Shown piece by piece: positions 5,915 to 39,000 of a DNA stretch of 64,000 bases. Under the pieces are notes generated by a model. The model was given only the letters and a program-made list of their open reading frames with translations. It made no database searches and was not told the DNA's origin. Each line of letters begins with the position of its first letter. The first letter of the stretch is position 1. Where the stretch lies: the NCBI GenBank assembly GCA_961205875.1, contig OY540811.1, positions 16,733,248-16,797,247 of the forward strand, in the 5' to 3' direction. Source of the DNA: Sialis fuliginosa. Lineage: Eukaryota > Arthropoda > Insecta > Megaloptera > Sialidae. Made by a program: the position numbers and the translations under genes.

Positions 5915-5917
5915 GCG

Positions 5918-6305: not shown

Positions 6306-6327
6306 TAGGTTAGGTTAGGTTAGGTTA
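6306..6327 (+). repeat. Short (TTAGG)n telomere-like run
   Basis: TAGGTTAGGTTAGGTTAGGTTA is four units of TTAGG, the canonical insect telomere repeat, lying directly after the right 372-bp block. Short runs can be chance or the product of element or break repair. Confidence 0.7.
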
Positions 6328-10719: not shown

Positions 10720-10980
10720 ATGAGAGAGAAAAAACTCCACCACATCACCCAAACTTCCCAACCTACTTTCTTATCAATACTGCGTACATCTAGCTAGCTA
10801 GATAAGACCATCCTGTATCGGCACCGTTCCGGTATGTTTGCGTACGTCGAGAGTTTGAATAATGGCGGTACGGGAAAGATCTCGCTACGCGTGCACAGTT
10901 TGTAAATTACACATCTTAGCGAGATTATAGTTGGTGGAGGAGGAAGAGGGCCTGCAACGCTCCAAGAAGATACTGCCCTT
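10720..10980. other. G+C-rich island in AT-rich DNA, possible non-coding exon or promoter
   Basis: CpG-containing sequence (TGCGTACGTCGAGAG, AATGGCGGTACGGG, TCGCTACGCGTGCACAG, GGAGGAGGAAGAGGGCC) contrasts with its flanks. The longest frame from its ATG is about 19 codons, so it is unlikely to be coding. It lies about 4 kb before the first visible Fas1 exon and could be a regulatory island, a 5' untranslated exon or a promoter of an unseen transcript. Confidence 0.3.
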
Positions 10981-13154
10981 CTAGTGAATTATTGGGTCGA
11001 GTTATTTGTTTGTGGCACGCGAAAAATTTTGTATATTAAAATTTGAAGATGGATTGTCAAGTGTTTGAGTATTGTACGAAAAATTAGGTTCTAGAGTTCG
11101 AGGAAAAAAATCATGTTAATTATGGAAGTAAAAATCATTAAAAAAAACTTTTCTATTCTTTGCATAACAAAAGCTTAGATTAAATTGTATTTAAAACCAA
11201 AAAATAGGCAAACAAATAATTAATTTAGATAAAAAATCGATGTAATATAGCATAAGCAGTAGAGGCTGTTTTTTGTATCAGAAAATAAAATCTTTAAATT
11301 TGAAGTATACATAAATATTATTAATTTCTATAGGGATATATAAATCTCTATATACTATATAAAAATGAATGTTCATGAGGCTTATTGATCTGATTTCAAT
11401 GCGGTTTTCACTAATAGTTAGATAATTTTTCTGTACAGTATCGTGGCTATTCATCTTTTATGAAAACCTAAGATCTAACATCGAAAGGCATGTTGGGTGG
11501 GCAAGTTGTAGATATTAACCCAGGTAACACCGGGTACAATGCGCTAATATATAAAAATGGCATTTAGGAAAAATAGCCGCCATCTAGTTTTGTTTAAAGT
11601 TTCCTATAATGTACAAGGTGGCTTATTATTTATACTACGCTTGGTTATACTTCGATGAACTACGATTGGATTGGCAATTTTCTCGGGCATTCAAAAGTAG
11701 TATCTTCAAAACCTAATTTTTAGTTAGCGGTTAAAATTCTTAAAATTTTAATTATTCCAAGGTTTGGTTCAAATCACGTCCAGAAGATAACGATTCGGGA
11801 TAATGTGCTTCAAACAAATAAATTACAATCATTATTATATTCATGTAATATTGTAAATTTAGTAAATGAGTATTAAAAAATGTAAAGAGCTATAAATGTA
11901 CCCATAAAAATTCTTGTGTGTTTAATTAAATTTAATAATAAATTCATATAAGTTTTATAGCACTCATAACCCTTTTGTAATGTAGATAATACCTATGTTT
12001 AGAATGGGGTTTGAGTATAAAAATAAAAATATGTAAATAATATTTTTACGTTCCCGAATTTTCTTACATTAATTTATTAGAGTTATGACAAAATCTCAAT
12101 CTTTAAAAAAGGGACAAATTCATTAAGTCAAAATATATTAATATTGAAATAGTATGAGCCCATTCTAAAACGTTTATTGCGTGGGAGAAATGTTTGGTAA
12201 ATATAATATTTATACATTAATACGAAAATTAGAACAGATACTTAAAAGTTATAAAATGCATTATCAAAGATTATTTAATCAGTGTGGGAGTGCAACAAGT
12301 GTGCTGAGAATTTTGGAATTTTTAGATTTTTTTATGGAATAAACACTGATTTGCATCCTGAAAAAGCGAAAAATAATTAATTAAATTTTTTTAGGATACT
12401 AAGGTACCGCGAATTTCATCGAAAAAAAAAATAAAAAAAATAACAATTTGGTTCTTCCATAGTCAATTATTTTGAATTAAATGTTCCCTGCCCTTTTGAC
12501 CAAAAAATAACCTTTACAGTAATATATTTTAGAAAGAAATTCTCCTTATGTAGAATAATATAAACTACTAGTAAATAATTTTTCCACGGTACACAAAAAA
12601 TCGTGTTGTGGAGATGTATTTCATTTTTTTATGTTTCCTCAGAGAGACATTCGAATGTATTACAACTTAACATTCACGGTTCGCATAAAAAGTTGAACAC
12701 ACTGTTAAATATAATAACGCACGACGATTGCCCTTAATAATACATGCTACTGTATAAAATATCCCCTACAAAAACATATAAAATAACATGAGGGTGAACA
12801 TCGGATACCCTATAAAAGAAAAAGAAGAAAACAAGTTAATGATATTTTATATATTTCGAGATGATCTGCTTCTATCTGTATAAACCATAATGTTTAAGAT
12901 TTTTACTGTTGATTTTTATTATATGTGTTACCGGTAATGTATGAAATCCGCTAATGTATAGAATTCATAAACATTAATAGGGTCTAGCTCTCACTTAATA
13001 CTAATCCGGATAAATATTTGACTGAATTGATTAGGTACATATTATTTAAAGTTCCAATATTGTTTCTGTGAATTTGTTATTTTAATAATAGGGGTCTTAA
13101 ATCATACTTAATACACGTCTGGGCTAATATGTTAATAAAAGATTAATTAAATAA

Positions 13155-13320
13155 TATTAACGTGTTTTATTCATTATTGAATAAAGATCACAGATGCCAC
13201 GAAAAACTGAAATATGCCGTAGCTTAACAATCACTCCAGTGCAATCAATATTAAATTCAACTCAAGTAAGCTTTGGAAAAAAGAATGGCTGATCTTTAAC
13301 AATTTTAAATTTATTAAAAT
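13155..13320 (+). mobile_element. Fragment of the hAT-type element family
   Basis: TTTATTCATTATTGAATAAA.ATCACA..TGCCA.G.AAAACT, then ACAATCACTC.AGTGCAAT and AAGTAAGCTTTGGAAAAAAGAAT follow in the same order as at 45815-45950 within the complete element. The terminal inverted repeats are absent here. Confidence 0.7.
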
Positions 13321-15014
13321 CAGTTGCATATTTTAATTACTATACATAATATTATTATAATTATTTTATATTAAATTTAAAGTATTATATTAAAGATTAA
13401 CCGTAATTAATGTTTAATCTTTGGTTTATTAAGATATTCTTTAACATCAATAATATAACACCAAAAATAATAATCAATAATATTTATTATATTTTACGGA
13501 TTAAAAATACTATGTTTTTAAAACTAGAAAGAAAGAAAATTATTTGATTTTTGAAAATAGATAACAATGTATTATTTTATTTTAACAATTTTAAATCATA
13601 CTTAATATGCATCGGAGCTAATACATATTTTGTTTAATTTATTATAATAAATATCAAATGTTCCAATATCGTGTATGTGATTTTGTTATTTTAGCAATAA
13701 AGGCCCTAAATCTTACTTTTAATATGAATCTGGACTTTCAAAAATTAATTAAATAATATGTATGTATCTGTTTTATTAATATCGTTTTGTCTTTATTTAA
13801 TACATTTCCTAATATTTTCATGACATTTTATAGAATGCTTAAGCCAAGTATATAATTAATTTCTTATCAACAAATATTTCATACATTGCCTGAAATCGTA
13901 CGGCATTATATAGAATTCCTAGGTAATATATGAAATACCTGAATTACATACTTTGTCGGTAACATATGCATTAAATTGCAAAGAAATGGGCCTAAAAATT
14001 TAAAGTTCATAGAAATAAATTTTATTGATTTTGAAACCGAAAAAACACAGTTAACAGTGGATATTTTCGTAATTTTTAATAATATACTGATTACATTTGG
14101 TGATTATGTAAATATAATAGCTAGGGATAATAAACTGAAATAATAAACCTTTTTTTACAATACGTACCGAAACATATATTCTGTAAACTTTATAGCAATT
14201 GCTATAATTAGTACTTTGTATTAATAATGCTTGTTGTACCTATATACTGGAAATTTCGACAAGTATTAATTGAATTGTTTTATTAAATTATTTATTATCT
14301 GTTAAGCCATTTGATTAATTACAATATTCAGCCATTTATAAATAAATAATTTGTATCACTAAATTATACAAAACCAGCAGCTCGTACATGACTTTTCCCA
14401 CGTTGTATTCGCTTTTATGAACATTATTATAATTTATAAAAACTAATACTATTTGTGTTGTTAATTAACCCCAATTAAGGTTGAATTTTGAAAATTCAAT
14501 TCTATAATATCAGCAATACTGAAAATTTTTAAAAGTTTAGATGCACCCCCCCCCCCCCCCACACCTGAAAGGTTAAATTTCACAACATTTCTTCTTACTA
14601 ATGTCATAAAAGAAACACATTTATAAATATTCACAAAACAGGGCAACAAATATACTAGCTCAGAAAACTTTTAAAATAAACATTGGAATTTCAGTAAGAT
14701 TTATGTAATGAGATCATTAGAACTCCTTAAAAACTCCTGGATAACAAGATTATTTTAATTGGAAACAAAAAACAATACACCTATCCAAATTACATTTATT
14801 TTATAAATCTGCTTCTACTGTTTAATATATACTCGTTTTAAACATCTTGGAAAAATCAAAATGGCAACATGTGCTTATAGGCACCTCGCAGTATAAAGAC
14901 ATATAAAAATGATATCTTTCCAAATCGGTTATAAATCGAAACCCATCTATCACGAGTCAACAGATGAATTTTATGTGTTATGTTTAGAGTTTTGATTTAT
15001 ACTTTTTGTTGCAG

Positions 15015-18000
15015 CAAACTTGGCGCAAACGTTGGAGCAACTGCAACAATCCATTACGACTGAAATGGAAGGCAATCCACCCTTATGGGTTACCAAAGTT
15101 CATGGAAAATACAGCGACGATATTTATATCAACAATGCCAAAATTATAAAAAGTCGGTCAGATTATCAAGCTCCAAATAATCAAACTAAGAACCAGGTAA
15201 GTCTTTTAAGTTTTAGATATATTTTTCTACAAATATAGATGAAAATATAATAATAGATATGAACGATTCTCAGTATAAACAAAATGTCGAACTCATAAAC
15301 TTATTAACTTACCAAAAAACACGGAATCGTACATACTTTTGAAAAGGAATTATAAGCGAAAAAAATGTTTTTTACTTTAAACAGAAATATCCATTTTTTA
15401 ATATAAAATCAACTCCCTGACAGTTAGGTAAACGTATTTGAATATCAATTTATAAATACCGGAACAAAAATTCGCGGGATCTCAGTACTGTAATCAAAAA
15501 GCCGCACACATACATATATGGAGATATTTAAATAGTAATTTAAGTTTGTGATTCAATTGCTTTATTTAGACCAAAAGACAAAACAACAACACAGTGTTTT
15601 TAAAACAATTCATATTTTAAAATGTATAGGTTTGGTTGCTATTTTGTTGTTTTTTTTGGTTTTAACACAGCATTTAGGTATTATAAATAAGTATAAGAAA
15701 GTTTATTTTTTATTTTTTTAAAACAAAAATTTTGAAACAGTTTTTTACATACCATTTTATTTACCTACTATGTTAAATACATAATATGCAAAAGTAAACA
15801 ACCACAAAGTAAAATAGAATTTTAATAGATAAATTAAGATGGTGTATCAGACATAATACTTACTATTACTATATATACCGTTTATCTTGTAATGAATTTT
15901 AATATTTATTGTTTATATTATAATAACATATGTTTTCTTGTTAAAGGTACTTCATGTAATAGATGAAGTATTAGTGCCTGTTCTAACCAACCAAGGAACA
16001 GGAACTACTGCAGTGTATAATCCTGATGCGTACACTTTCTTAAACCAAGCAGAAAGTCTGGAATTAGGACCTCATCGAGTCAGGTAAATTCACTTTTAAT
16101 TATGTTTAACAAGGGGACTACCAGACCCTTGTCGCACCAATTTGCTTTAAAAAAATTAGGGTTGTAGTAGTGGCATAGACAAACCTATACAGCGAGCCGT
16201 TTGACGGAAAATTCATAAACAAACGAACCCGGCCATTCACGGTTGTCAGCGGCTAGTATTGCGTTTGACTTTAACTGGATAGGTACATATATTGTAGGTA
16301 CATATGTTTAAGCGAATTAACATAGGAATTTCATAATTGGTGGTCCCCTTGTAAGTAAACTCTCTTTCAATCATCTTAACCATAAAAAATATATGTTGTA
16401 TAAAAAATCAATTAAAAAAATTTTAAATCTCATATACAATATATGTACATATTTTCGAGAATAATTATTCGAACATTGGTTTATTTGCATAAAATAAGTT
16501 AATTTAGTATCACTGGCCAAAAGTTTATGAAATCTTCAAAAGTCGGATTTTATTTATTTTTGAACTCAATCTTTTTCGTTTTTTTACTATCCAAAGAAAC
16601 TAGAACCGACCTCAAGCAAAGACTATTTTCTGTAGCAGGTCACTGATATAGAATTTTCTCGTTAACAATTCAAATACTTACTTACAATAAGTAATTTCTT
16701 TACAGAGTTGTGATTTCAATCATTATTTCTGTCGTTTCTGTTTTCTCCTCCGTCCAGAATGCCTACGATTTTATAAATTTTTTTTTCCTATTCTACATAT
16801 AATAAATACTCTTCAAATACTTTGGTAATTATTATATTATACCCTCCTGATTATATATAATATCAGATAACAACAGGATTAGTCGTAAACCATTTACCTG
16901 TCTTTTTTTAATTTGATGTACAATTCAAATATTCTATCGTTCGGATATTTTTCCCATGCATCTTTGTTGGTCTTTACTCTTTACATAAATAGTTTAGTAT
17001 CCACTATAACTAATACCATTTTATTCAGTAGTGTAATGATACTAAACTAACTATATTCCTAAAATATATCCAAAAATTGCAGAACTTTGTTATGCCCCCC
17101 CTAATAACTTCCGACAAGTATATTTATTTAAGAAACATCAACTGTTGTTTATTCTGCTGAAAATTTAATAGTTTTAGCTTTTAAATGACTACACATACAT
17201 TACATTTTAATTTTTAGTGTACAGTACAAAGTACAATAAACATGTTATGTTTCAGTATATTTATGACGGTATTAATTTTCGTGTAATATTCTCAGATCCT
17301 TCCGGCAAAGAGTGGCACATACAAAGAAGGAAGAAGTTTTCAAAGCTGAAGGACGTCATACATTCTTCATTCCTGTTGAAGAAGGTTTCAAAGTAAGTTT
17401 TGTTTTATATTGATTTTATAAACTTTATTTGTTGGCAATACTTTTTTCGCTCGTAACTTTGTTAAAATGTTTTCTGAATACCAAAAAAATCATATTAATA
17501 TAATTCATTATTATCATTTTTAAAGCTATAGGTACAAAAATTTAGATATAAGATTATATAATCTTATATACCTATATGTAGATACATTCGTATTTGTAAA
17601 TATATATTTTTTCAAGAAAATAAATAAAGTATGTTTTGTATTGAAACAATGTAAAATTTTTAATGAGGGAAAACAATGTAAATAGAGCGTTTTCATATTA
17701 TTGATTGTAATTTGTACTGACGACTGTACATATGAACTTGGTTTTCGGAATTTTGTCAACGTTGTAGTATTTTTTTTCCTTTACATTTCGACTCTCGCCA
17801 GAAGAGTTTCTGAGACGGATTATTGTATTTACATAAATCTAGGTATATACTATTCTTCTAGTTAAGTGAGACATACTACATATGTAGTTATATAAGTAAC
17901 ATACATATGTAGTTTTGTCAGATTTTCATTAACATTGCATCAGTTACTGCTCCTCCTTTCCTAAAGCTGGTACTGATTATTTGTGATATACATTTTGAAA

Positions 18001-21000
18001 AACTTTTCATGAAATTTTATTATTTTTTATTAGTAGTTGTCCAAATAGTTTTTTAGAAGAAACAGACAAAATTCATTTATTATAAATAATTTTTACATAT
18101 TCGTTTGTGAAACTGAACATTTAGTATCCACAAAGTGTAAGAACTTTATAAAAAATATTTTCTCTACATTTTTTATTTTGTGGATTTCATTGGTCACATT
18201 AACTTCTAGATATAAATCGACAGCCATTTCACAAGCCGGTTTCAACGTACTCTATATTTCTTGTTCGTTTTCTTACAGCCGGCACCAAGACCAGAAAAGA
18301 TCGACGGACGAGTGATCGACGGTCACGTGATTCCGAACCAGGTCCTCTTCACCCACCCCACACCGCACGACGTACAGTACGAAACGCTCGCTTTTGGCGA
18401 CAACGTAAAGGTCACTGTTTCATTCGGATTACAGAATGATGGAAAGAATTCTTACCGTGAGTATTTTCTTATCAATATCTTTATCAGAATGGATTGCGGA
18501 AGTGATGAGATCCTGTTTGATACATATATATGTGTTTGCCTTTGTAATATTTCTCCAAGAGAAATATTCATTTGATTTTATTTTAAAATTTTTTGTTTGC
18601 TCAATTTTGCAATTTTCTAATTTATTTGAGTGATATTGTTGTAAAATAAAGGTGTTCAAATTAAAATGTTATTCATTTTTATTTCAAAAATCAAGATACT
18701 TGCAGAAAAAAAATTAAAAGTTACTAAGTTCAGAGAGGATAATAAAAAAAATTCCTACTTTAAAAATTCTTAAGAATCTGAAAATGTTTGCGAAAGCTCC
18801 ATATAGATAATTTTTGTTAGACTAAAGTTAAAAAAAGCACACTCATAAAAAGATTTAGGATCATACATACGACTGCCCCCACAGGTATATTTTACAGGGC
18901 TGTTAATGGATTTAAGAATTTCAATTTTGGGGTGTAGGGTGAAAAGGAACAAACCGAAAATTTTCTTTTTTATGAAATTTTCTCAACGCTTGTCTCAATT
19001 CTGAGACAAATGTTAAGAAAACTAGATGTGCCAGCGAATTCACTCGCTTAAACATATAAGTTAGGTATATGGTATCGCAGAGTTTCTTTACTACATTATA
19101 TTGTTCAATATTTAACATATTGACAGCGTATTGCAAAATAGCTCGGTGACGGAAACCTTTTTACTATTATCGTCACTGCTTATTCCTTATGTTACCTAAA
19201 GTAGCAAAATATATACTAAAACCTGACTAAAGAACATATTTATGAATTAAAAAAAAAAACACGAAAACCGGATAAGTGGTTCTCGAGTGATAAGCGCAAT
19301 AACGGACAGACAGACATTGCATTTTATAATATACAGTACCCGATTTAAGTCAGTTAACCGAACAAAAAGAAAATAAGAGCATACAGAAACATGGTTTATT
19401 GATTGGTAATTTAGATATAAAAGTAATGACGGCAGCGATAACTGACTTATGCCAGGCCCTGTATATAGAAAATACATAATATATGTCCATTTTTCTTACA
19501 GCATTCGTAAGAAGTAACACCCTGATTGGCGATTCCAATCTTGCCCAAGGAGTAGTTCTTGCCCAAATTGTGAAAGCTAACATCCCGGTGAGAAACGGTG
19601 TGGTCCATTTGATCCACAGGCCGTTGATGATCGTCGATACCAATGTCACTGCGTTCTTACAGGTGGGTTCAGATTTCTCAAAGTGTGTCCACTAATATTC
19701 GTGTCTCACTCGAGCTCTGCCCGACACCTTTTTAGTTTTTATTTTGATATTTAACCACGAGCTTCCAGAAGTAGTTATTGCACAAACTGGGGATATAAAT
19801 TGCTTATAAATGTTGTCGGGCGTAGAAAAAGTAACAATAAACGCCTATTGTTTAAAGTTAAAATTTAAAAAACAACGAATATTTGTTTAACGTTGAGTGT
19901 AATAAATGAAAATAGGCTTTTATTGATTAATAGCTAGAAATAGAGATATCAAAATTATATTTTCAAAATCATTTTTTATTATTGAAAGCACTATCAGGTA
20001 ATCTTTATACTAATTTTTTATTTAAGTACGGTTATTTTTAAAACAGTCCTAAATACTTTCCTGAACAGATAAATTTGTTGGTATGTTTTTGATATCTTTA
20101 TTTTTGTAATTTATTCTAAATCCGACTTTGTTAGATTATTAAAATAACTATTTTTCTAAAATTTCAGTCAAAATTATGTGGGTCGTTTGAAACAAATCTA
20201 TACACAGACAAAATAACAATATAATTAAAATGGATATTAAAAACCCGAACACATTATGCAATATTCCTTATTCTAGTTTATTTTAAAACCACACAGTTAC
20301 ATTTTCAATACTAACAATTTTCCTAACTCAATATTAAATTATTCTTTACAGGGAAAGGTAGTTTAATTTTTTAAATATTAAGTAAAGGAACATCAATTAA
20401 TTACGTAAAGATAATTTTCGACCCCCCCCTCCCCTCCATTTTTGTAAGGGTTCGAAAGTGTTGGATAATCTCCACCTTACCTTATGTAATGTTTTTTTTT
20501 CTTTTTATATAGCAAAGAAGTAGGTTTATTGATACAAAATTTTTGATTTTCTTAATATGTATGTATATTATATGAAAAAGCAATTTCAACAGCCGATATT
20601 AGTTTAACTTAACATATTTTAATTAATTATTTCGAAAAAATCGCTTTGCCCCCATCCTACCCCACGTCAAGATTCGTTAGATTTGTCGGAGCCCTTTCAC
20701 TTCAAACCTTACGTAATTAATGGATGCTTCCTTAACATCTGCTAATTTAATGAAATTATATTATTGTAAAATAATTTTTAAAATATAATATTTTAAAAGT
20801 AACTTTACCCTTCACGGCATGTAGATATACATTTCTCCCTAAATAAAATGTAATATAATCCTAAACATTGTACATAAAATGACATATGTAATGTCCATAC
20901 TGTATAGGGCAATGAGATTTATTAATAAATGACACATGAATAGTGATGTAAAATTTCTTAAAAATATATTTTTTTGAAAACATCATGAAAAGTTTCAAGT

Positions 21001-24000
21001 CATTGAAAAGTTCAGATTGTAATACACAGTTTATTTATTTTTTTACAATTTTATTAACTTGGTTTGTTTGTCCGTTTCGATCAAAATTTGTAACCAAAAT
21101 TTTTCACCCACTTTCCCGATGTCCGATTATCTTGAAATTTTGTATATGTTTGTATTCTCGATGACAATAATATAAGAATCAATCATTTCCAAAACTAATT
21201 TAAAAATATAATGTTACTTTTTAAAATTTGCGTGTTTTTTTGTATTACTTTAGCTTAAGTAAGTGATACCAACTAAAAAACACAAATGAACAAAACTTTT
21301 CAAAAAATTGAAAATTTTCACAGCCGAGTGAAAACTTTCAATGAAATTGAAAAATTATGAAACTTTTCACCTTTTCATCACTATACATGAATATTATAAA
21401 TGTTATCTATATACATATAAGTTCCAATTAATTCAATAAAAATCATTTAATTCTTTTTATAAGTACATAAGTGTGGTTGAGTCAATATAAATTAAATAGG
21501 CATATACTATTATATTTATATGTAGAAAATAAAATTTTCATTCATAAATAAATAGTATGTGTATTTATTCATTTTCCACACGCGCTCTATGTTACGTATG
21601 AAGAAGTAGTTGTTTGTTGATATGTCTTATACAGTATGACTTTTAAGAAATCCGTGTACTAATGGTATAGATATTGTTGTATTCGAATGGAATATTTAAT
21701 AATTTTGTTAATATTGAAAAATACTTTCATCATGAACACATCTACTATATATTTTAATACTTACTGATGTAAAATATATCTTACATGTCGACTGTTTCTG
21801 TCTGTCTGGTGATGCAGTCATTCAAGGTAAAGAACATCTGTCTCTTTCTCTAACTATATCTATTTATATACTACATGATATTTTTATTTAAAAAAGTATA
21901 CACATTAAATCGATTTTTTACAAAAATTATTTTACTGTAGTTCAATATTTTTTGTTTAAATTGATTTTGTAGAATTTTTTTTTGCTTGTTGGAATGCTTT
22001 TTTAAATACTCCTTAACTGTTTTTATATATGCATATATTCGTAATTTGTGTAACGTGTTCAAAATTTTATTTTATTTGTTTTTTCATATATTTGTCACAT
22101 ATTGTACATTTTTATTGAATTTTTTGAGGGAATATTAAAATAATAAATAAACCCATTTTTCAAATATATTGTATATAATATGTATAAAAAATGTATATAT
22201 ACCTGAATGCAATAGAAACTATTAGAGTTAAATAATTTGAAATGCTAATTACTTATTTTTAATTATAAATAAAAATGTATAATATAAAATAATACATTGA
22301 GAGTATAATCATAAATATATGAAATGCAAATTCATAATTAAACCTACAATAGTGGCTTGGTTGTAAAATTATATTATAAAAGTAAAATTAGTTATGGAGT
22401 AAAGTTAAAATTACTACACTTTGTATCTAATGTGGATATTTATTATATAATGAATATGTTATTAATTAGAGCAAATTTTATTCGCGATCTCGAAATTTAA
22501 ACTTAAGTGCATGGATTTACACAGTTGTAAAATTTCGGTCAACGTATGATTCTGCCCCTTATAATATTCTCCTGTAAAGAATTAATAGATAAATATCCAT
22601 AGATACAGTCACATACAACATATATAATTGGCTCATTAATTTATTTGCATTTACTGGTGCACCAGCATATTTTTAACAAAATACAAGAGCACATTTTTAT
22701 TTTATAAATACATATTTCTCTGTAACAGTTTTGTGCTGCAAACACATGACGATTTGCCAACATAAAGACGCACACGCATTTTTTGTACAATGTTGACACA
22801 AAATAGATATGAATTTACATTATATTATATATATTTTATTTTATTATTTAACCCTAAAATTATGGCGCCCTATCTTATGGTATTAGCAGTGGGGTAAAGT
22901 CTGCCAGACCCATATATATTTATAACATTTTGAAGGGGTAGTTTGAAATTTTATGGGCTAATTTAATAGTAACATTAGTTGTTAATGAAACGAATCAATA
23001 GTAATGGTTAATTGATTTTATATTTATTAATTTAAAATTCTGCAAATGATTTTTTTGTCAATATAATTGTAAAGCAGATATTATGTAAGATATAAATCTG
23101 TAATCAAATCATTATAATTACCAGAGACCTGAACCTGAATCCGAACCAATGTCAACGAACCTGAATTTGAATCCAAACCTTTTCATGGATAACCGGTAAC
23201 CATATATTTTTAAAGGGTTCAATAAATTATTTTTAATATTTGTGTCCAATAATTTTTAAAAGAGATTGTAAAATGTAGCTACTAATACTGGAATTCTGTT
23301 TGAATTTTATGGTCAAGTCAACTACTAAAGATTACATATTTTTTATTTTCTTTTTTAATTCTATAACTGAATTACACTTTAATTTGCAAAAAAACTGAAA
23401 AATAGAGATTTCAATCTTTTAAATGTAATTTAATTTTTTGCCTCCTTTTTCTAGCAGTATTTCAGTGGCTATTAATGTTTTTTTCCTCTTCAGAAATTGT
23501 TTTATTTGTTACTTATAATTTCTTTTTCGAACAAAATAGTTTTCTTTCAAATACAAACTTGAATCCGAACCCGAATCTAAACCCTAAGAAATAACGGTTT
23601 TTGAATCCAAATAGTTTGCAACATATTGAACCCAAACCCGAATCCAAACCAAAATTTATATTTGAACCCGAACCATAAATAAATTTCGGTTCAAGTCCCT
23701 GATAATTACATATATAAAAAAATAGTAAACAAATTTAAAAACATTTTATGATACCAGGTAGCAGTGGCGTCAAATCTGATACACATTTTTAACAATATTT
23801 TCATAAATACTATATAGAAGTGACACATAAAACAAATTAACGAAACTAACCATGCCAACAAATAACTACTGAGAATAACATGTACATATACGTCCACTAC
23901 ATAACTATTTAAAAAAGAAAATCTATTATAACTTCAAGATTTGGCGCTACTGCTGCAGAGTTAATATATCTGCTGCTACATTTTCCAAGTATATTTATTA

Positions 24001-27000
24001 AATCTATGCAGACCACATACCACTTGATTGCTATTTCAATTTATTATAGGCATACTCATTGAAAGGCATATTATATGTACAAATACCAAAAATAAATCTT
24101 CCATATATCTCTATGTATATTTTGTATATATTATTCTCCTTAAACAAATAAAATATATAATATAAGTAGGTACAACCAACTTTTGAATGTCAAATATATA
24201 TGAATATCTGTTAATGTACTTGTACGTAATTTAATATGTACATTATGCTTTATGTAAATATGTTTCTATAATCTATTTTATTTCTTGGAATTAATTTGCA
24301 AATATATAACGATATTAATTATTCAGCCTACTTATTCCATTTTGTGTTGTACATTGTTAATTAATTTCTGTAAACTTGTGTGTGTTTGAACATAATACTA
24401 TATGCACATATAAATCGTCAATAATGTGAATATTTTAATATATAACACAATATACCGTTCACGTTTTGATATTTCATCTTTGTACTTTATATTATACTTA
24501 ATTAATTTCTTTCAGTACTTTTACTGTTTTGGATTGTAAAGACATTGATTTTTAATATAATTTTTGATAATATTTTTTTAAGTCGATAAAAATGTTCAAA
24601 ACATTTACATTTAAAATTATATGTTAGAAATTCTTAATCGGCAGGAAATGTAGGGGTTTATTAATAATTTTTAAACTGCAGTTTTGCTGATTTGTATTTT
24701 TATTATACTTTATCAAAATTATCACCTTAACCATATTACACGGGTTACACAAATCTGTCGTAGACACATCCGGTCCGCGTGAGTTATTAATCTGGCCCGC
24801 GACGTTATTTTGATTATCATGATTTTTCCATGAGAAATATATTTAAAAGTCGCAAAATCTTGTTATGTATTAACTTATTACATTTGAGAAATATTGAGAG
24901 CTTATTACTCAGAAAGTATTTGACATAAAAAAATAACACCTATTTACCTAAAAAAAATTCCTAAATTTCATAAATTGGGGCAGTTTTTTGGTCGTGATAA
25001 GAATGAAAAATCAACGTTAAATGTGCTATAAGACTATTAGCCCGCGATAAAATAATATTTACTCTGTCCCTCCGTCAAAAGAATTAACATAATAAAATAT
25101 GATATATTATAAATAAACTTACAACTTGGTTTTTTTTTGGCCATCTACATGTTTATTAACGTTTTAACGTGTTATTTTTTAAATGCATACATATGTATGA
25201 TATATCTTAAAAAATAATACGGTACTGGCACCAGTTATGGCCGCTATAAGAGCAAGGTTTAATGTTTTGGTGATTGACGGACTTCTTTTTGTAATTCTCA
25301 TGAACTCATATTTCTAATAAAACAAGTAACTCTTTATTTAATCAATTTAATTACCAAAGTCCGCAAATATAGTTTGTTTTTTTAATTTATAGCCTTTTAT
25401 TCAGCTTATGTCTTTTCTCCAGTAATGGATAAAGTAAAACCATTAATGAGCACGCAGTGATAGACACTTGATAATGATTACAAAATGATAGTATACGACA
25501 CAAACAATATAAAAGAAAGAATCGTCAAATTTGAAACAATGCAGTTGCTATGATAATATAATAATTAATAAATAAATTATACTAATAATTAGTTTAAATG
25601 TCCACCATTTTGATACTTAATGGCCGATTGTCATGAAATCACACTGTAAGACAGTTAAATGTATATAGATTAATATTCAGAAATGGTAGTAATCAAATAT
25701 TAATAAATATTATAATTCAGTAAATTTAATTAAAAAAATAGCCATTACTAGGGTTATATCCAAGACTGGTGCCATTATATTAGAAGTTACAGTATTTACG
25801 TCAAAACAGGTATAATGTGACGATTCCCACGATTACATTCTTTATGTTTATCTGAAATGCAAAAATCTAATATTTTTACAACCAGGAAAATTGTCGCTAT
25901 AATCTCTAGAATCTCTACTGAAATCATTTTTAAAAACATATAATAGTTCACATTTAAAGATCTTAAAAATAGTACAGAAATAAAGAACTTGTATATGAAT
26001 TGAATAAACTGTTTAAATTTATTTATTTTCAAGTGAAGGTCCATCAATAGTAGTCTCCATGTCAATTCAGTATTTTTGATTGAAAATATTAATTGCAAAT
26101 TTTCCTAGATACGGACCTACCCTAATTCAATTATATAGCCTAAACTCATTCTGAGATCGAAGGTTTTTGAACAGTGAAATACCCATCAAAATCGATTCAG
26201 ACAAATTGATAAAAAAAATGTTTTAATTATACAGACAATTAGCATAATTTGCTGTTGTAGTATAAATATTAACTAATACATTGTAGAATGCGTTAAAAAC
26301 AAATTACGTATATAAACTTTTATATTAAATCGTTTACTGCATTAAATTTTAAACAAATTATAAAATGTATATCAATGTCTTTACAAATCTATCACAAACA
26401 ATTAACTCAGACCGAAAAAACTACATCGTTTACATAAAATGGGTCTTTGTCGTTAACTGTTTCGCTTAAAACGAGCAACATATTTCTTAAATATGTTACG
26501 CCCTTTCCAACTACTTTTTTCATACTTGTGTGCCAAACGTAAATATTAATAAATTTTTGTTTAGCGTGTTTTTGTGTGTAATGTCCATCTTACTGCTTAT
26601 TTGCATGTCTTATTGATGGAAAATGGTCCTTCTACTGCATGGTCATTGGTGTCTTTCCACAGGGAATTGTAAGTACCCCCCATTATACATCGGATCGATA
26701 TGCCAATGTCCAACAATAAATACTTTGTATTTAGTTTTAGAAAAAGAAGAAAATCAATAACGATTTTTAATTTTTCTACGCATATAAGTTGCGTCCTTTC
26801 GATCGTATCTTCTTGATTCATTTTGACTACATGGTATCTCGAAATATCTACTGTAATATATAATATGACAAAACATTTACCAAAGAAATAGCGTAGAAAA
26901 TCTACTTTGCGTCAATGTAAATAGTTTATTTCCAATATATTGATTCTTCGGTATATATTTTTTATGTTTGTATTAATATTTAAGTAATACTCGTACCTAC

Positions 27001-30000
27001 AAATACAAAGTATTTATTCTTTTTTCTCTAATCAATTTACTAACATTTTAAAATGCACGTACAATAATCCTATAGGTATTTCAGTATTTCCCAAAGTGTG
27101 GTACATGTAACAGATTTTCAAGGGGTAACACATGTATAATAGCTCTTTCAAATTATGAATAAATTGTTTTATTATAAAAATATAAATGAAATGAAATATA
27201 GTGAAACTTCGATATAACGCTCCCGTTTATAATGCTATCCCGTATATTTCTTAAATTTCTTCAAATTAAATTCACAACATTTATTATGCAAGTATTAACC
27301 ATTCCAAACTCTCTTTAGTGGAAAAAATGGTGATTTTACAAAAATGTGACGTAAGCAAAATATTTTAACAAAAAGATTTAGTGAAGACTATTAAAATTCA
27401 TTTAACTCTTCGTTCTATTTTTAAAAATCGACAAGAAATCGAAAAAAATGCTTGAAGTACATAATCTAATTTCTTCTATCGTAATACATTTTATAAATAT
27501 TTATTTTCTTATTTATTTACCTATTGAGCTATCCCATTTATAACGTGTTTTTGTCCCGATCCGCTTAACAGCGTTATGACAAAGTTTTACTGTAATAACA
27601 CTGTAATGGTACGACATATTGTTGATATTTGTGAGTCATACTATAGTAGATAATATCTAACGAGCCCTTCTATCACTAAACAATTGCAATTTTATCCAGA
27701 ATGTTATAATACCCCCCCCCCCCCCCCCCGCCCCACAATACTTTAATTATTTCTGTCAAACGTGGGGCATGCTTGCTAAATCAATGCCAAAAAGGAGTAC
27801 ACTGGTAAAATCTATGTCTTGTTATAAATTTGGGAAACACTGCTATACCTACTTTTTTTACTTTAAATGACGTTTTTTAATTCAGATTTTCATTGCATTT
27901 ATTTTAAATTAATCCAGATTAATTAAAGTAGGTATTCCGTAGTTCACATAAAGATTATTGTATACATTTAATCCTTGTAATAAAAATATTGTAGTTAGTT
28001 ATTTTTATCATAACCAATAATTTCCATTTCATAATAATCCTAAAAAAAATATTTTAATAGCTCTTTCAGTAAATTTAGACGCACAACGTTTTAACTCTAT
28101 GCATTTTACTTTTGAAAAATATCCACATCTTTTTGTAGTTTGTTGTTTAATTCGTCTTTGACATGGAACCTGTACTTTTTCATCGAATACACGTAAATAT
28201 TTTTTTAATACTACTTTTTTAATTATTTGATGTATTTTTTTTAAATAAATTTATATATGTTGTGTTCGTTTATTTATTTTCAGAATGATTTACATTGAAT
28301 AGACATGAACTTTTCAAAAGTCAAAGCAGTAAACTCTACAATGAAACAAACAAAAAATGCTATTTTTCATAGAAGTTATTCGCTTTTGCTTTTATACGGG
28401 ATTATTAATTAATATTCAGTTGAAATTCCCATCTTTTTGTTTCTTTGCAAATTTTATGTTATTGATGTAAATCAGTCTTACGTATAAATATTTTTACATG
28501 GCAATTTTGTATTTTTTTTTGTCAGTATTTTTTATTTAAAAAAACGTATTATTTTCTCAGCTATTTACAACGTCAAATACATTTTAATTTTTTATGTTCA
28601 CGAGAAGAGACGTATTTTTTTAAATAATCGACAGAATTAAAATATTTCAGTGTGCAAAATGTAAAATAAATTATCGGTTTGGGTTTCAGCTTCATCTACA
28701 TATTTGTACTATTAATATTATATCTATATAGCCTTATGTGTGTCTATTATTGTTTGTAATATTCAACATATTGTAGTAGCGTTAGTTATTTGTTGTTTGT
28801 CTATATACAAGTAACCGTGCTCTTATATTACAACTTACAATAATATTATCTTGATATTTTTTATAACATGATTCTGCTTACGATTGTTTTAAATAATCTA
28901 TTGTTTACATAGATGGAATGAAATTAACGGTATTCTATTGTTCTTTGTCTATGGAAACAGTTAGTAATTAAATATCTATGCATATATGTTTTACAGAAAG
29001 AAGTAATACAAACATTAGTTTATTGATTTTCTCACCTTGTTTTGTTTTCTGTTATTGTATTAATAATAATAATAATAATGAAAAAATATAATTATCAAAT
29101 ACGCTTTCTATACTCGCTTTGTAAAGATACTAATTACTTATTAAACTCATCTTCGTTCTTTATGATTATGTTAATATTTTGTACACTGAAATATTAAAAA
29201 ATTAAAAGTTGAACACACGTCTAAATAAACTGTCAAGCTATTATTTTAATTAAAAACATACTAATGTACACGACATCCTATTTGAAAATATATTATATAA
29301 ATCATTTGTAAATAAAATCAAAGGAAAGAATTGTAATCATTCTTATTATTAATTAATAATGTTTTATTGCTGTCAATGTTATTTTTGGCATTGCTTCTGC
29401 TAACAAAAATTGGCGCTGTTTAAATGTAATTAAATTGTACAATGACAGGATCGTATACAATAAAAAAATTGTAAACAAAATTTAAAAACTCAAAGTATTG
29501 ATATCCAAAAAAATCAATGATCCCAATAGCCTAACCAATCGTCCCGTATTTGTGGGACAATTCACGATTTTTAACATTTTGTCTCATTGTCGGGACGCTG
29601 AAATGTTCCATACTTAATTAATTTTTCTATTAACGAATTTTTTGTAAATTGTCAAAATTACGCTTCTTTATTATTTAAAAGTTAACCTTTTAGATCGCAA
29701 TTTAGTGCATTTAATCAAAATTAAATTAAATTTAAAATATTGTGTGACTATTTAATAAATAATAATATATATATCTATCCTGTTTTTGATGTAAGAAAAT
29801 ATGGTCACCCAATTGTCAAACTCATTCCTAATTTTAAAATTTGAGATAAAAATATTTAATTTTAATTGCCATAAAAAACATTCTATACGATCCTGTAAAT
29901 GTAAAGAATCATATATTTTGTATATTAAAATGAAACTAATGTGCTTTTATAACTACTAAAAGTCGATATTACTAGCCTGGTATTTTTTCTGATAAAATAT

Positions 30001-33000
30001 TTTTCAAAAAATGAAAATATTTAAATATTATTTATGATAATAATTCCTTTAATATTTCGAGATAATCTCTATCTGTTTTGTTAATAGTCAATATTACTTC
30101 ATTCTGAGTAAATTTAATTGTATGGGTTTCATTAAAATTTTGTATTAGTTCCTAACTATTTTTGATTATACAGTAGATCAAAATTCATCTGATCGTCAAT
30201 TTATACGCTGGACATCACTATACAACCATATTCTTTAAAAAAAAACGTTAAACAATTGCAAAAAATGACTTATACCAGGTTAACTAAATCGACCATAAGT
30301 TCTCCTCCACATTATTAATCAATTCTTACCATCTAGGATCGTGAAGACAGTCCATTGTACAAGTTTTACTCAATTTTACTGGACGTTGGAGCGGATTTCA
30401 TCGACACAATCAACCACAAGAGAGATCTGACTTTATTCGCACCAAGCAACGCCGCCTGGGAGGACCCATCATTGCAGTCAATTATCCAAGATAAGAACCG
30501 ACTAAGAGACATACTTAACCTTCATCTTGTTGTCAATCAACGGCTTCCATTGGACAAGATAAAGAGGGAGAACAAGATCACGGTAAGAGTCGATTCTGCT
30601 TTATTACGATAATGTTTTTATGTTGCGTATCACTGTTTATATTTTAGCACTTTCATCTACTTTTAGATGCTTTTTAAGGGAGAGGGGTGTTTCAACTATC
30701 TCTTGTTAAGTCTATTATTTTTTATAAGATTTGAGGGTATTTTATATTTAATAATTGTATTATTAATATTAGGTAAATTATATTGTAGATACAAATTTGT
30801 AATTACAAAATCTTATAGGATTTAATAGACATTAAAATAAAAAAATAAGACTCTTCTAATCTATTTTCAAAAACTCATAAACTTATAAATCAAATAGATA
30901 AACAAACATATATGTATATAGATATATTTAGATACTCTTTCTTTAGTTTTTAGTTAAATAAATAAAGTATATTTTTTGTAATAGTGTAATTAAACTATTT
31001 TTATAATACTTTTTACTAAACTTTTTCAAATTATAGGAGCTGGTAAGTATGCAAAATATTTTTCTATTAGCAAAATTCAAAATTACTAACCTTACAAAAA
31101 TTATATATACTACATAACTATTACATTATTACATACATACATACATATGTACATAAAATACATATACATAACACTAGATATTTTTATATTCAATTTAAAA
31201 TAAAATTCTTTTCAAACTCTTTCTTGTCTAATGTTTAATAATTTCTAAATTGAATATAAAAGTACGAAATTCCTTCTTTTAATATTTAAGCAGACCACAC
31301 ACTAAAATTAGTGATTCGTGCAACTTTTCTTTTAACTAAATTACTTTTTATGGGAAAAATTTATATCTTTGTACCAAATGTAAAGAGAAGAAACGATTTT
31401 ATAGAATCGTATGTTTTCTCGTTGCACAAAACTATTTTTAGTACTTATTTTAGTGTGCGTTCTATTTCAATGTAATAAAACTTATCTACAAACTTACAAT
31501 AAATAAATATGGTACTGACACCAAACTTGGACAATACCCCAGTGTTGAACACTTGTTTAATTAAATGTATTAAATTAGAAACATTTGTTAATATTTGATA
31601 ACTGCCATTACTGAATCATGATTTGTAGACACTTACAATTAGCTGTAAAACAGTGGTGGACATTTAAACTAATTATTAGTGTAATCTATTATTATTATTA
31701 ATTATTATATTATCATAGCATCTGCTTTACATTGTTTCAAATACGATTCTTTATTTTATAACTTTTGTGTCGTAATATTAATCATTTTGTAATCATTAGT
31801 AAATGTCCATCACTGGGTGTCCATTACTGGTTTTACTTTTTCGATTATTAGAGAGAGAAAAAAATAAAAATAAAAGGCTATAATTTAAAAAATAAACTAT
31901 ATTTCCGGGCTTTGGTAATTATAAAGATTTAATAAAGAAGTATTTCTTTTATTAGTGACATGAATTCATAGGAATTACAAAAAAGAAGCACATCAATTCC
32001 AAAAAATAGTATGCCTTGCTCTTAAAGCGTGCAAGACTGGTACCAGTTCCTTATTTTAGTATAACTACCTGTAAAAAAATATACGCATTCGTATAGAAAA
32101 ATGATATCAAACAAGTTATATTACATTTGAAATATACAAATAAACAGTATACATTTTGATTGAACCTTACGTAGCTGTCAATTACGCGTCAAACAATAAT
32201 TTACCAAATTGTTGATCAAAAATTAATCTCAAATTCACCTATATAGAGACTTTGTAAAGAACAATCTATCTAAAATAGAAATATGTTCCTCATTTGAACA
32301 TCTCTAACAATAAGTATATAGAATAGTAACGGTTAGCGACCTAATTTTATAACCTTTAACCGTTACTGATGTAGATCCTTCGCAAGCCAAAACGATTAAG
32401 TGTATTTAAAATTTTAAACTCAATCAATGTTTAATAAACGTGTGGTCAAGATACAATACAATACAAAAATCCTAACTCAATTGTTTTGGCAACTGACCCC
32501 TTTAGTATAGTATTCCCTTATACATAGCGCCCCAGTTTCAAAGGATGAAGTATTTTTTTAAGAGAAGGCAGAAACACAGACCATTTTCAAAGATTTCATG
32601 CCATGCATTTTATAACATACGATTTTACATATAATTTCATGAATTGAAGATAAATTGGCATTATGCCAAATATATTTAGTATTATAATAAGGAAACCGAT
32701 GTGTAAAAAATACTAGAGTACAATTTCGAAAAATACCGTTCTTTCTAAACTCCACCATAGTAATTATATAAGTACGTCTTAAAAAGCACGCTAAATAACC
32801 TTTGAAACTGAGACACATGTTTATTTAATATTAAATTCCAAATCTATAACTTAAAGATTTACAAAAACAATTGGCACACGCATGATAAACAAAACACATG
32901 CTTTTTAAAATTTCGTTCGTAGATGTATGAATGGATGTTTACATGAGAGTGTGAGTGTAAGTCGTTCGTTTTGCTTATCCCAGTTATTCCAGGTACAAAC

Positions 33001-36000
33001 CGCATCCCCTGGAAAGTCCCTATACTTTAATATCATCACATCCGGCACGAACGAGACCCTCACGGTTGAAGGAGGTGGGGTCAACGCCACCGTCATCGAG
33101 CCTAACATTGCGGCGACAAACGGAATCGTCCACATCATTGACCGGGTCCTAGGAGTACCGTACACAACTGTCTATGAAAAACTGAAGACTGATCCAATGC
33201 TCAAGTGAGTAAACAAATATAATCCTTATTAACCGAAAGACCATTTTTATTAGAATTCGTGGATCTTACGATCAAATCTTAAAATGAAACCTGACTTACA
33301 TATCTCAATTTTATATTTTTCACTCGCGTGAACTACTGAATTATTGTTTAGGATTTAAAAAATATATAGTTGAATTAAGTACAAACACGATTAGTTATTA
33401 TTATATTAAAAACCCAAACAACACTTAAATTACCTACCTAACAAAAGCGAATCAGAACAAAAAGTTAAAATAATTTTTGTTCTATATAAATTTAAAAGTT
33501 AATTATTGAAAACAAAATAAACAATTGCCAATCAAAAGAATACCGGACTGTGATCATTCCCTCTGCTCTGCATCTACACGGTACGCTCCCTCCTTACCGC
33601 ACGCCGCGACACGGGTTCCAATCGCGCGAATAATATGTTCCCGTATGTATATTTCAAGATATTTTCTAAATTATACGACCAAATTGGATGCTGTAAAGGG
33701 AAAATTATATCTACATTAAGTACTTATGACGATGAAATAATTTATTTCAATAATGATTAATGTTTTGCAGGTCATAAGTCCACGTAAACAAAACCCAAAT
33801 ATTTTTAATTTTCTTTGTAACATAAAAGCAGTCATTGTGGCTTAAATATAAATGTTAGACATATGGTATCGTTGACATTATTGTAGATCTTTTGATTCTA
33901 CACTATTCTTTAATACATTATTTTGTTTAATATTGAACGGTTTAGGCAGCGTATTGCAAAATAGCACGCCGACGGCAAATTTTTTTCCGACTTGATTTAC
34001 TATTATCATCACTGCTTAGTTGTTATGTTACCTAACAACAAAATATAGCCTATAACCTGGCCAGAGAATGTACCTATGAATTAAAAAAGAAACCACGTGG
34101 TTCTCGAGTGATAAGCGCACTAACGGACAGACAGACAATATGACAAACAAACAAACAATGGATATTATTTATATTTAATAATCACAAACCCGTACATTAT
34201 TCTTCATGCGAATTGTATATTACGCTTGGCGTATATGTTATATATGTATGTATTTATAATGTTTTTAAAAAAAAGGTCTTTGCATCATGTGGTGGTGGTA
34301 ACACAACTCAGATTTCAAGTGTCTAACTCGACTAAATAGGCTATTGAAGAATGTTATAAATATTAATTTTAATTTCAGTGATACCTTCATTCTTGGAGAA
34401 GCAGGAGGATTTAACAAGAGACTCGCCGACAAGACAAAGAAGTATACTTATTTCGTACCGAGAGATAAGGCCTGGCAGGAAGCTGAAATTGAATTCCCAT
34501 CAACATATAAAAAACTCTTTATGAAAGAATATACATACCATGTAAGTATTCCAAGTATTTTTAACATATATTTCAAAGTAGTTGCTATAAAGTTAAAGTG
34601 ACCAGAATTCTAAAACCATGATGCGGGACACCTCCCCCCCCCCCCACATACACATACGAAAAAAATTTTTTAACAAAAATGTAATAAAAATAATTATTTT
34701 TTTTAATTTAAATAACACAGTTTTTTTATTTTAGATAAATAAAGTTAACATTTTACAGCAGTTTGAATAAAATCTAAAGACCTTTTTTTTTTAGTCATCA
34801 AATTGAAATTCAATTCTTAATTGTTTTGTAAATAAACAATATACTAATAATGTTATAAATGTCTAATCCGGGACGATTTCCGGGACAATTTGTGATGCGG
34901 GACAGGCCACTCAAATTCGGGACTGTCCCGCACAATCCGGGACGTCTGGTCACTTTATATAAAGTTAAACTTCGTTTTTAATTATCTCTAGCCTAGAATA
35001 TATTTGATGAGAGATATAATTTTTAGAAAACAAAGTGGTTAATTTGATAATTTATGTATTTACGAATATTTTGCAGACATTTGCGCACATACTTAATTAA
35101 CTATTAAACTTTTTTAAAGTGCAAGTCGGTATTTATAAAATGTTCATTTTGTAAAATTTTGTTGCCCCCGAAAATTGGCAACCGCTCTAGCAATTTATAC
35201 CTTATTCCAATTCTTACTAAATACAATTTTAATATTTGTATGTTATTAGAATGTTATTTATCTATTATAAGTAATGAACATTTTTCGAAATAATTGATTG
35301 TGTACTGGTTTCAAAGTAGGTAAAATTTTCATTAAAAAATTTTAAGATTAGGCACGAAATTTTTTGTGTAGAATTACTCAATAAAGGAAACGTAAAATAT
35401 ACTTGAACAATTTATACTTGCTATATTCCAAAAGATTATCTACACATGAACTTGTTCCCTCTCAACTTAAACTCGTTGTTTCAGGCTCAGAGCATCCTCG
35501 AGAGACACTTGATGGTGTCTGACACACCTTTTACAATGGCAAAGATCAAACTAATGGCCAACGACAGTCATGAAGTTGTTCTCCCCACACTTCGGGATAC
35601 TTTGAAAATCCGTGTGAAGGAAACGGATAAAAGTAAGTAGTGTCTTTTGTATTTTGTTTCGCCATTTGTCCAATTCTGCATATAAGTACTTATCGGATGT
35701 TTTTTGTATAAATAATTTTAGTCGATTTAGGAACCTAAGCAAATGGATGTTGGATTATCGTTTTTTGTTTTTTTTTTTTTAATGTATGCACAGAATACAT
35801 TTATATCCGGTATTATAAAGGATTTCGCAAAATTTACTAGTTTCAAGCACTGTCAAATGATTAAACGATGCCAAAATTTAAATATGCTAAGTTTGACATA
35901 ATTCAATCTTTAATCAATTTTATTTATTTTTATTAATGAAGTAACGATATCACATTCAACTTTTAGTGTATACTTCTGGATTTCAAAACAGTCTATACAG

Positions 36001-39000
36001 ACGTCAAATGTGGATTGAATAAACTCGACTGATTTTTTTTAAATTTTGAATCGACTATTAAAATACATATTCAGTATTTTTGCTTCGTCTATTTATTAAT
36101 ATTAAAATTTAATTCCAAATTCAATGAATATTTATTTATTTGTAATATTTTTTAGTAGGTGTTCTTTGTACAGATAATTCTGTAAGTAAATATTAGTGTA
36201 TCATTTATTTTTATTGTAAGAAAATAAAAATAAATAATAACATTAAGTAGTGTCTCTAATTATTTCTTAAAATTAGAACACATAAGAAATAAGTAATTTT
36301 TTATTGGGTGGTTTTTTGTGTAAATAGTTCTAATCGATGTGGTATACATTTTGTTTTTATGGTGAAAAAATATGAAGATCTATTAATATATTTGCTTTAA
36401 TTATTTTTTTGTATTTATCCAGCTATTGAATAACTTTTTTGGAACTAAAAGTAATATAAATATATTTTTAATCCGATAACATACACTCAACAGTTTTATG
36501 TTCTATCTAAAAATATGTAACATATGTATAATATGTGTATTATAAAAGACATTTATAGATCTTCAAGAAGTAACTTTAATAAATGTTTATTTAATTATAG
36601 CAACTTATCTATCACAACTTCTATTGCCTTTACTGTTGCAATATTAATTATTCTAATATCGTATTTAAAATTGTTTTGTGTGCGTGTGTGTATTAAAATG
36701 TATTATTTGGTTGATTTAACAGCTGCAGAAAATAATCGTACTGGTGAGTTTTGTTATAGAGTTAGAAACAGATGAAGTTCTTGCTGAAGAAATAATCAAA
36801 ATTACATCCTACTTATTACCTGATATTTTACACTAAATTCATCTATTTAAAATAAAGCATGCAAAAAAATTAATCAATTTAAAATTGGTACATTTCCGGA
36901 ACTAAACATAATTAATCACGTATTTACCAAAATTGAGCGTTTAGTTCAGCCAGGACTTCCTCCCTCGCAAAACATCAGTCGTTTTTGTTCGAACGGATTG
37001 GAACAATCAGTTACTTGTTGCTGCTTGTTCGATAGAAGTGAAACAGCTACATGTGTAATCACAGTTAGCGTACATTGTTACTACCAATCAGAACACGGGA
37101 AACATTCATTAGATCAATGTTAAAGCTTTTACGATTGGTAATGTGCAGTTACAGTGAAACTTCTTCAAACAGTCCAGCTATTATTACCTAAATACCTAAC
37201 GTAACGTAATCTTTCTGTGGGAAAATTATCTTTCGTTAATGTTGGACATTAAACCAGCAGTAGAAACGTGAAAAATCCTGACATCAGTGGGAACATTGGG
37301 TCAATTATTTTATTATTAATTAAAACATGGCATTAGATCCCCAGTCTAATATACATATATCACATAATATACCATAATTTTTTTCCTAAGATTAGTGAAT
37401 GTACATAACATAAAAACGTAACATTAACTTTATCACAGCAATATTGACAAAATATGTCTGCATAATTTAAACAAACGTAGCGGAAGGGATGAATATTGAA
37501 TTAATTCTATATCTTTCGAATCTGATAAAAAATTGAACCGGCCATGCTGTCAAAAAAGCCATATTAACGGGAACGTTGGGTTAGATTGACCCATCAACAA
37601 CTTTAAAGAGAAATAACATAACATGTCACGTTTCTGTGATAAACTCAAACTAATGAACGTTCAACATGGTTCAGTTTGGAGGTAGACTGGCGGTTAAGTA
37701 AAGAACTAATATTGTTAAGTTTATAGAACTCTTCATGGATGTCGTTAGGTCAGATCGACCAAACGTTTCAACTGCCGGGCTAAGGATATGATCATTTCGA
37801 AAAGTGCCACTGCATTTGTACCAGTTTTATCATTTATTTGAAAATATTGAAAACGTAAAACACTAATTCGATTAATAATATTTTATTTGAACAACTACAT
37901 AGTTAGTGTGATTACAAAACCCCTATTTTCTCTATAAACCTATGTCAATTACTGTTATTTTATACTTTCCATTAATTTATAATTAAGACCCTATACCACA
38001 CGTCCAAAACTCCCCTTTCAAAACATGGTTAGAATATTAAAAACCTTATTCATATTAAGTTTCGGTCGTATTTTATTCTAGAAACATCATTAAAGAAAGA
38101 GAGATGCAGAAGAATATAATTTTTCCCATTTGTTCTTTGCGTGTTTCTTACGAAGTTTTTATCGATAAATAACAAATAATTAATTATTTTTTAAATTAAT
38201 ATTATAGTCGTTACGAAAAAACTTCTTTTTTTTGTCCAGTGTTTCTACTTTAAGTAGTTTCACAATTTTCTTTTATATACTTTATTTATTCAGACATAAA
38301 TAAACCTGAAAGGTAATAGATTTGATTACGGTACACATAATCTTGTTCGATCATGTAAGATTAAATGGAAATGGCAAAAAAATATTCCGTTCGAACAAGA
38401 ACATTTGTTTATTTAGTTTTCACATCACTTATTTATTATACTAAAACAATAACATTTTATGTTATACACCAGTCAGATTTGATCGATTTTTGATATGAAA
38501 CAAGAAAAATGAATGAAAATTGATAATTAGAATGGTCTTCTGTTGTGTTGGTCTAATAATGGGCATGTAATTGTTGTAAGCATTGTTGATTTTTTATTTT
38601 TTCTTAAATATCTTGAAAGTTATTCAAGTTACGTCATAAATGGACATAATTGGTTTTATACAAAATTATGTTCTTTATTATGTCCTTCATAATAATTGGC
38701 TGTTTCGGCGCTACGCGACTTCCTCTAATTTGATACAGACATATATCAGTATGTTCTTATCGCATTATCAAATTTAAAACATACATAAATGTGTTATTCA
38801 TGTAAGACATATCAAAAAATTGTAAAAAATTAATTAAGAAAATTTTTATCATTTTAATTTATAATTTTAAATGTGTGAGAAAATAACATCGAAAAATTCG
38901 CCAATTTTTAATTCTTTTATAGAATTTTTATTACATTTTTTCAATAAAATAAAATATTTATATTTACCTATATTATAAAAAAATATACACAAATTAATAA

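Follow-up and report, generated by a model that had tools for sequence, protein, structure and literature searches.

A probable nine-nucleotide alternative micro-exon, shared with Drosophila, in the fasciclin I gene of Sialis fuliginosa

Micro-exons of the gene (Fas1) for fasciclin I, an adhesion protein of nerve cells, have been known as a class since 1992, and passages in three papers, each citing McAllister et al. 1992, describe those of Drosophila. According to these passages, a 9-nucleotide (nt) exon of the fly gene was the first alternatively spliced micro-exon to be reported (PMC8042270), the gene has two exons of 9 base pairs (bp) (PMC7392893), and the inserted residues may change binding specificity (PMC8831610). 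Here we describe what is very likely a further instance. In a 64,000-nt stretch of the Sialis fuliginosa genome (contig OY540811.1, positions 16,733,248 to 16,797,247 of the forward strand; we call this whole stretch the window), the intron before FAS1 domain 3 very likely holds a 9-nt cassette micro-exon that is orthologous to the 9-nt Fas1 micro-exon of Drosophila and encodes Ser-Phe-Lys (SFK).

Two other described systems are relevant to how such an exon might be recognized. First, according to passages of PMC8797185, the eMIC-dependent exons of the fly have weak splice sites at both ends, a UGC close to the 3' one, and a strong 5' splice site upstream; their AG exclusion zones are long, their branch points (CUAAY) strong, and their introns short, and there are alternating UCUC tracts. 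The passages also state that eMIC expression in Drosophila depends on Elav/Fne. A coding exon of Fasciclin 1 is among the ELAV-dependent signatures in PMC9631114, in a passage that does not specify which exon. Second, a passage of PMC4317164 reports that human brain micro-exons are regulated by RBFOX and that its motif is enriched on the downstream side of alternative micro-exons rather than on the upstream side.

The Ser-Phe-Lys micro-exon

Ten coding exons of Fas1 between 15015 and 41400 (Table 1), together with SFK, join to encode one uninterrupted protein, which has a hydrophobic tail before the stop. Residues 242-555 of this protein align to domains 3-4 of 1o70, a chain of Drosophila fasciclin I (E 3.8e-102). 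Also, four of the five Fas1 pieces that we scanned with Pfam passed the cut-off of PF02469; the piece below it was 19504-19662. Judging from the alignment and these matches, the locus is an insect fasciclin I gene. A figure legend in PMC6032426 carries the label "DsFas1 FAS1-3 (1O70_A)".

The intron of interest is 10,674 nt long and separates exon 19502-19662 from exon 30337-30582. The 9 nt of SFK, TCATTCAAG, lie between ...TGATGCAG and GTAAAG... and keep phase 0. With these 9 nt included, the window reads ...DTNVTAFLQ-SFK-DREDSPLYKFY..., and 1o70 reads ...DTTVTQFLQ-SFK-ENAENGALRKFY.... The tripeptide, which is residues 14-16 of the 1o70 chain, is identical and so is its place. The match to 1o70 is 100.8 bits with SFK and 90.8 bits without it, when a gap is needed at the junction. 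The vertebrate relative periostin behaves the other way around (65.4 bits with SFK, 75.4 bits without). Because 1o70 gains and periostin loses, SFK is an insert that is common to the gene in the window and to Drosophila.

This agreement is more than chance would give. Under a dinucleotide model, the expected number of strings in the intron that encode SFK between AG and GT is 0.0049, and none of 300 dinucleotide shuffles of the intron contained an in-phase 9-nt string of this kind. The splice sites are another matter. We scored every in-phase, stop-free string of 3-30 nt between AG and GT in the intron (n = 88), and SFK ranks third. For background, we used the same shuffles and six control stretches (about 61 kilobases (kb): the antisense of the intron, 1-14000 and 41500-50000 on both strands, and the antisense of 35700-41100). 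Candidates that score at least 5.1 number 3 in the intron, 0.26 per shuffle, and 5 in the controls (0.9 per intron length), so the splice score of SFK is unconvincing on its own; the peptide is convincing. At the lower threshold of 1.0, there are 8 in the intron, 2.46 per shuffle, and 29 in the controls (about 5 per intron length). The controls do not include the sense strand of 35700-41100, which is part of another Fas1 intron and has three candidates of at least 1.0, two of which score at least 9. An in-phase 6-nt candidate in the intron 30583-32992 (GAGCTG, Glu-Leu, 31037-31042; score 7.6, 50 nt free of AG) illustrates the background rate.

Taken with the flanks described below, the protein comparison makes us highly confident that SFK is a Fas1 micro-exon that is conserved and very probably alternative. 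It shares with the Drosophila micro-exon or micro-exons the gene family, the length of 9 nt, and the residues Ser-Phe-Lys, which have the same place in 1o70. On the other hand, the species is different, the intron here is 10.7 kb, and none of the other candidates that we name below (GI, GK, and KE) can be paired with the second micro-exon of the fly. From the alignment to 1o70, we also considered whether the SFK junction might be paralogous to the intron where domain 4 begins, but we dropped this idea, as phase and place differ.

The initial annotation of this DNA, which was made from the letters alone, had put SFK and a 6-nt Lys-Glu (KE) string in one intron, each bordered by an acceptor and a donor and in phase 0. 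The sequence confirms all of this, with both strings on the plus strand, and the assignment of the flanking exons bears out that the site is between FAS1 domains 2 and 3. The annotation was also right that alternative micro-exons are described for insect Fas1, but the passage of PMC7392893 gives the fly gene two exons of 9 bp and not a pair of 9 and 6. It is reasonable to expect, as the annotation did, that standard gene predictors would miss exons of 6-9 nt.

Flanking sequence and possible regulation

SFK has unusual flanks. For 145 nt before its acceptor AG there is no other AG, and just 7 of the 334 gaps between AGs in the intron are at least this long, including SFK's own. The intron has three copies of UCUGUCU, which start at 21797, 21801, and 21837 and all lie within about 40 nt of SFK, and the last of these is in the CU-rich tract TCTGTCTCTTTCTCT downstream. 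(The whole window has four on the plus strand and three on the minus strand.) None of the 300 shuffles had three copies within 45 nt. Upstream of SFK stands TTTCTGTCTGTCT. The donor of SFK is weak and scores 2.6, whereas those of the neighboring exons score 9.5 and 6.0. By their coordinates, the introns to either side of SFK would be long, about 2.2 and 8.5 kb. If we require both a score of at least 5 and at least 90 nt free of AG, then SFK and GI are the only 2 of the 88 candidates that remain. There are no such strings in 70,188 control bases; 6 of the 300 shuffles had at least one, and none had two.

These flanks are partly like those of the published neural exons that depend on eMIC/Srrm234. 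The likeness, as far as those published passages go, lies in the long AG exclusion zone, the UGC by the 3' splice site, the weak donor, and the strong donor upstream. By analogy, SFK would be skipped outside of neurons, because it is tiny, its donor is weak, and the exon before it has a strong one. In neurons, an activator of the Srrm234/eMIC type would promote its inclusion, and this activator might be recruited via the UGC beside the AG and the long, pyrimidine-rich, AG-free acceptor region. The three residues that inclusion adds would come after NVTAFLQ and before the body of domain 3, and they would alter the geometry between domains 2 and 3 or the specificity of adhesion there. We infer both that SFK is alternatively spliced and that it works by slightly changing the junction of these domains.

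Several points weigh against our interpretation. The conservation of SFK is seen in one other sequence, the protein 1o70, and our view that the fly has SFK as an exon of its own is a deduction from passages in the literature. Our splice matrices are approximate ones for insects that we wrote from general knowledge; natural control sequence yields more high scorers than the shuffles do; and we picked the joint criterion of score and AG-free run, as well as the counts of UCUGUCU and UGCAUG, after looking at the data. Some features do not fit, or do not clearly fit, eMIC dependence. With a score of 2.6, the acceptor of SFK lies between those of two constitutive exons, 1.6 for exon 30337 and 5.9 for the other. 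Within 100 nt upstream of SFK, there is no UCUC or CUCU, which are present downstream instead, and no CUAAY, but just a CUGAU at -54. The eMIC exons, as described in those passages, have UCUC upstream, CUAAY, and short introns, and their median length in the fly is 31 nt rather than 9. Finally, the main text of PMC8797185 contains "Fas1" zero times and "fasciclin" once, where it means Fas2. Given the missing UCUC and CUAAY upstream, the ordinary acceptor, the long introns, and the absence of Fas1 by name from the main text of that paper, regulation by eMIC is a proposal and not a result.

If SFK is what we think it is, then it would be a defined case for how tiny exons are recognized and preserved, as it has the same three residues as in Drosophila and a splice setting that can be read from the DNA.

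Candidates for a second micro-exon

Exons 19502-19662 and 30337-30582 meet in phase 0, and the frame is kept with SFK, with KE, with both, or with no insert. For a second micro-exon, if there is one in the intron, our best choice is Gly-Ile (GI), which we consider likelier than KE. We tentatively give somewhat less than an even chance to the idea that GI is the second micro-exon and is controlled by an RBFOX-type protein via the two UGCAUG motifs upstream of it. GI has the highest score of the 88 (9.0); such scores arise 0.023 times per shuffle and not at all in the six control stretches, and 96 nt before it are free of AG. Two of the three UGCAUGs in the intron are at -61 and -27 from GI, and a pair within 40 nt occurred in 5 of 300 shuffles. 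Also, 26595-26714, around GI, is the second-highest peak of G+C content (GC) in an otherwise AT-rich intron. (The highest peak has a run of poly-C.) This peak could be an old repeat, however. Another difficulty is that Gly-Ile is missing from 1o70 at the site; adding GI to SFK lowers the match from 100.8 to 96.0 bits. The vertebrate micro-exons that are regulated by RBFOX and PTBP1, as described in that passage of PMC4317164, resemble the intron in the pair of UGCAUGs, putative binding sites, beside GI and in the pyrimidine-rich flanks of SFK. They differ in that GI's motifs are upstream and in that the phylum is different.

Several other strings compete for the same role. Gly-Lys (GK) has a score of 7.2 and two CTAAC sites upstream that look like branch points, but we consider it weak, as candidates of at least 7.1 occur three times in the control stretches, even though there are just 0.1 per shuffle. 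GI and GK, neither of which was in the initial annotation, both outscore KE, and so do THPVR and THP at 24764 (ranks 4 and 7; AG-free run of 80 nt), INLL at 20069 (rank 5), and HYQ at 19989 (rank 6).

The last intron of Fas1 (35633-41197) has a further candidate of 21 nt, CTGCAGAAAATAATCGTACTG, which keeps the phase. A score of 11.2 was reached by 1 of 300 shuffles of this intron. The two strings in 35700-41100 that score at least 9 are this candidate and a shorter string that is nested within it. If included, it would change KETDK-N-FYVEW in domain 4 to KETDK-TAENNRTD-FYVEW, which adds an N-R-T sequon. 1o70 has no insert at this place. Fas1 might have several micro-exons, each under its own control: SFK with its eMIC-like and CU-rich setting and GI with paired UGCAUG and RBFOX, both at one inter-domain position, and a 21-nt exon that gives domain 4 an N-glycosylation sequon. 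This seems doubtful to us. If it were true, then exons of 6, 9, and 21 nt could yield up to eight forms of the adhesion protein.

In the initial annotation, SFK and KE were both real micro-exons, so that the junction would gain 0, 2, 3, or 5 residues. This is unlikely. The KE string, AAAGAA, lies between ...GTTTTACAG and GTAATA..., and it does have a good acceptor core (TTTTACAG) and 6 nt that are open and in phase. Also, chance would seldom give exactly this peptide: the expectation is 0.011, and 300 shuffles held just one KE of at least 1.0. But nothing singled out KE beforehand. KE ranks 8th of 88, its donor scores -1.8, and there are 2.46 candidates per shuffle that are equal or better. 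Its AG-free run of 30 nt is similar to those of the two ordinary exons that we tested (31 and 35 nt), and the GC of its surroundings is average (0.25). On rank, shuffle rate, flanks, and GC, we rejected the idea that SFK and KE are equal partners. The comparison with 1o70 is neutral: SFK and KE together give 99.4 bits, which is about as good as SFK alone, and KE alone gives 95.2 bits, while the best stretch is 79.8 bits with both and 78.9 bits with SFK. Of the deep conservation that the annotation suggested for both strings, one other sequence supports conservation of SFK, and that of KE is unsupported. KE is probably a decoy rather than an exon; as a 6-nt micro-exon it is possible yet unsupported. 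A good-looking pair of AG and GT is not sufficient, and what tells SFK from KE is the protein comparison and the flanks.

It is very improbable that none of these strings is used, with SFK a chance string and the two exons always joined directly: although the junction without an insert is in frame and periostin aligns better to it, SFK is identical to the insert in Drosophila, against a chance expectation of 0.005, and has special flanks.

Rest of the gene and of the window

Table 1. Fas1 exons, micro-exon candidates, and nearby motifs, numbered from the first letter of the window
Feature	Positions	Strand	Remarks
Coding exon, second half of FAS1 domain 1	15015..15196	+	splice sites, phase, PF02469 match
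Coding exon, end of domain 1 and start of domain 2	15947..16083	+
Coding exon, domain 2	17296..17392	+
Coding exon, domain 2	18279..18456	+
Coding exon, ends ...NVTAFLQ, adjoins the 10.7-kb intron upstream	19502..19662	+	donor score 9.5 (strong)
Candidate GGAAAG, Gly-Lys (GK), phase 0	20352..20357	+	2nd of 88; uncertain
AG-free stretch, 145 nt, before the SFK acceptor AG	21671..21815	+	two UCUGUCU (21797, 21801); UGC at -5
Probable micro-exon, Ser-Phe-Lys (SFK), phase 0	21818..21826	+	well supported: tripeptide in 1o70, chance 0.005
CU-rich tract downstream of SFK	21837..21851	+	third and last UCUGUCU of the intron
UGCAUG (RBFOX-type) pair, starts 26602 and 26636	26602..26641	+	2 of 3 in the intron; -61 and -27 from GI
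Candidate GGAATT, Gly-Ile (GI), phase 0, then GTAAGT	26663..26668	+	1st of 88; 96-nt AG-free zone
AAAGAA, Lys-Glu (KE), phase 0	28997..29002	+	present; chance-level splice context
Coding exon, domain 3, DREDSPLYKFY...	30337..30582	+	PF02469 E 1.3e-9; 1o70 E 7e-18
Coding exon, end of domain 3 and start of domain 4	32993..33204	+
Coding exon, domain 4	34379..34541	+
Coding exon, domain 4	35485..35632	+
21-nt phase-keeping candidate, last intron	36723..36743	+	score 11.3; 120 nt AG-free
Last coding exon, to the stop codon	41198..41400	+

A simple look for motifs upstream of 15015 found none of the first coding exons of Fas1, which would encode the signal peptide and the start of domain 1. At the other end, the last exon has a hydrophobic stretch and then the stop, and this may be a glycosylphosphatidylinositol-type C-terminus. 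Among viral contigs, there were 37 pattern matches to Fas1, of which 0 were confirmed as relatives, and phage records gave no match. Prokaryote genomes contain 97 relatives of Fas1, and an insect is named in none of the titles of the best 80 of these 97.

Upstream of Fas1, there is a composite repeat at 3054-8016. It consists of a 152-bp minisatellite (3120-3895) with an inverted copy (7444-7950), and its arms (3054-3480 and 7590-8016), which are 94% complementary, surround an array of 8.6 copies of 184 bp (4336-5916). It looks like a mobile or satellite-bearing element.

Downstream, there are several other genes or open frames. The minus strand has an open frame of 311 amino acids at 47796-48728 with no match in Pfam. 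At 56333-56758, on the plus strand, there is an exon of the gene for mitochondrial ribosomal protein S34 (PF16053). A serine-protease gene lies at 58380-63058 on the minus strand, with a match to Trypsin within 59095-59490; it is presumably scarface-like. The long frame at 61147-62553, which is rich in proline and glycine and has no match in Pfam, may be the N-terminal part of this protease. Two more exons we recognized by eye: 51599-51877 on the plus strand is presumably PA2G4-like, and 55186-55593 on the minus strand is presumably MIC13-like.

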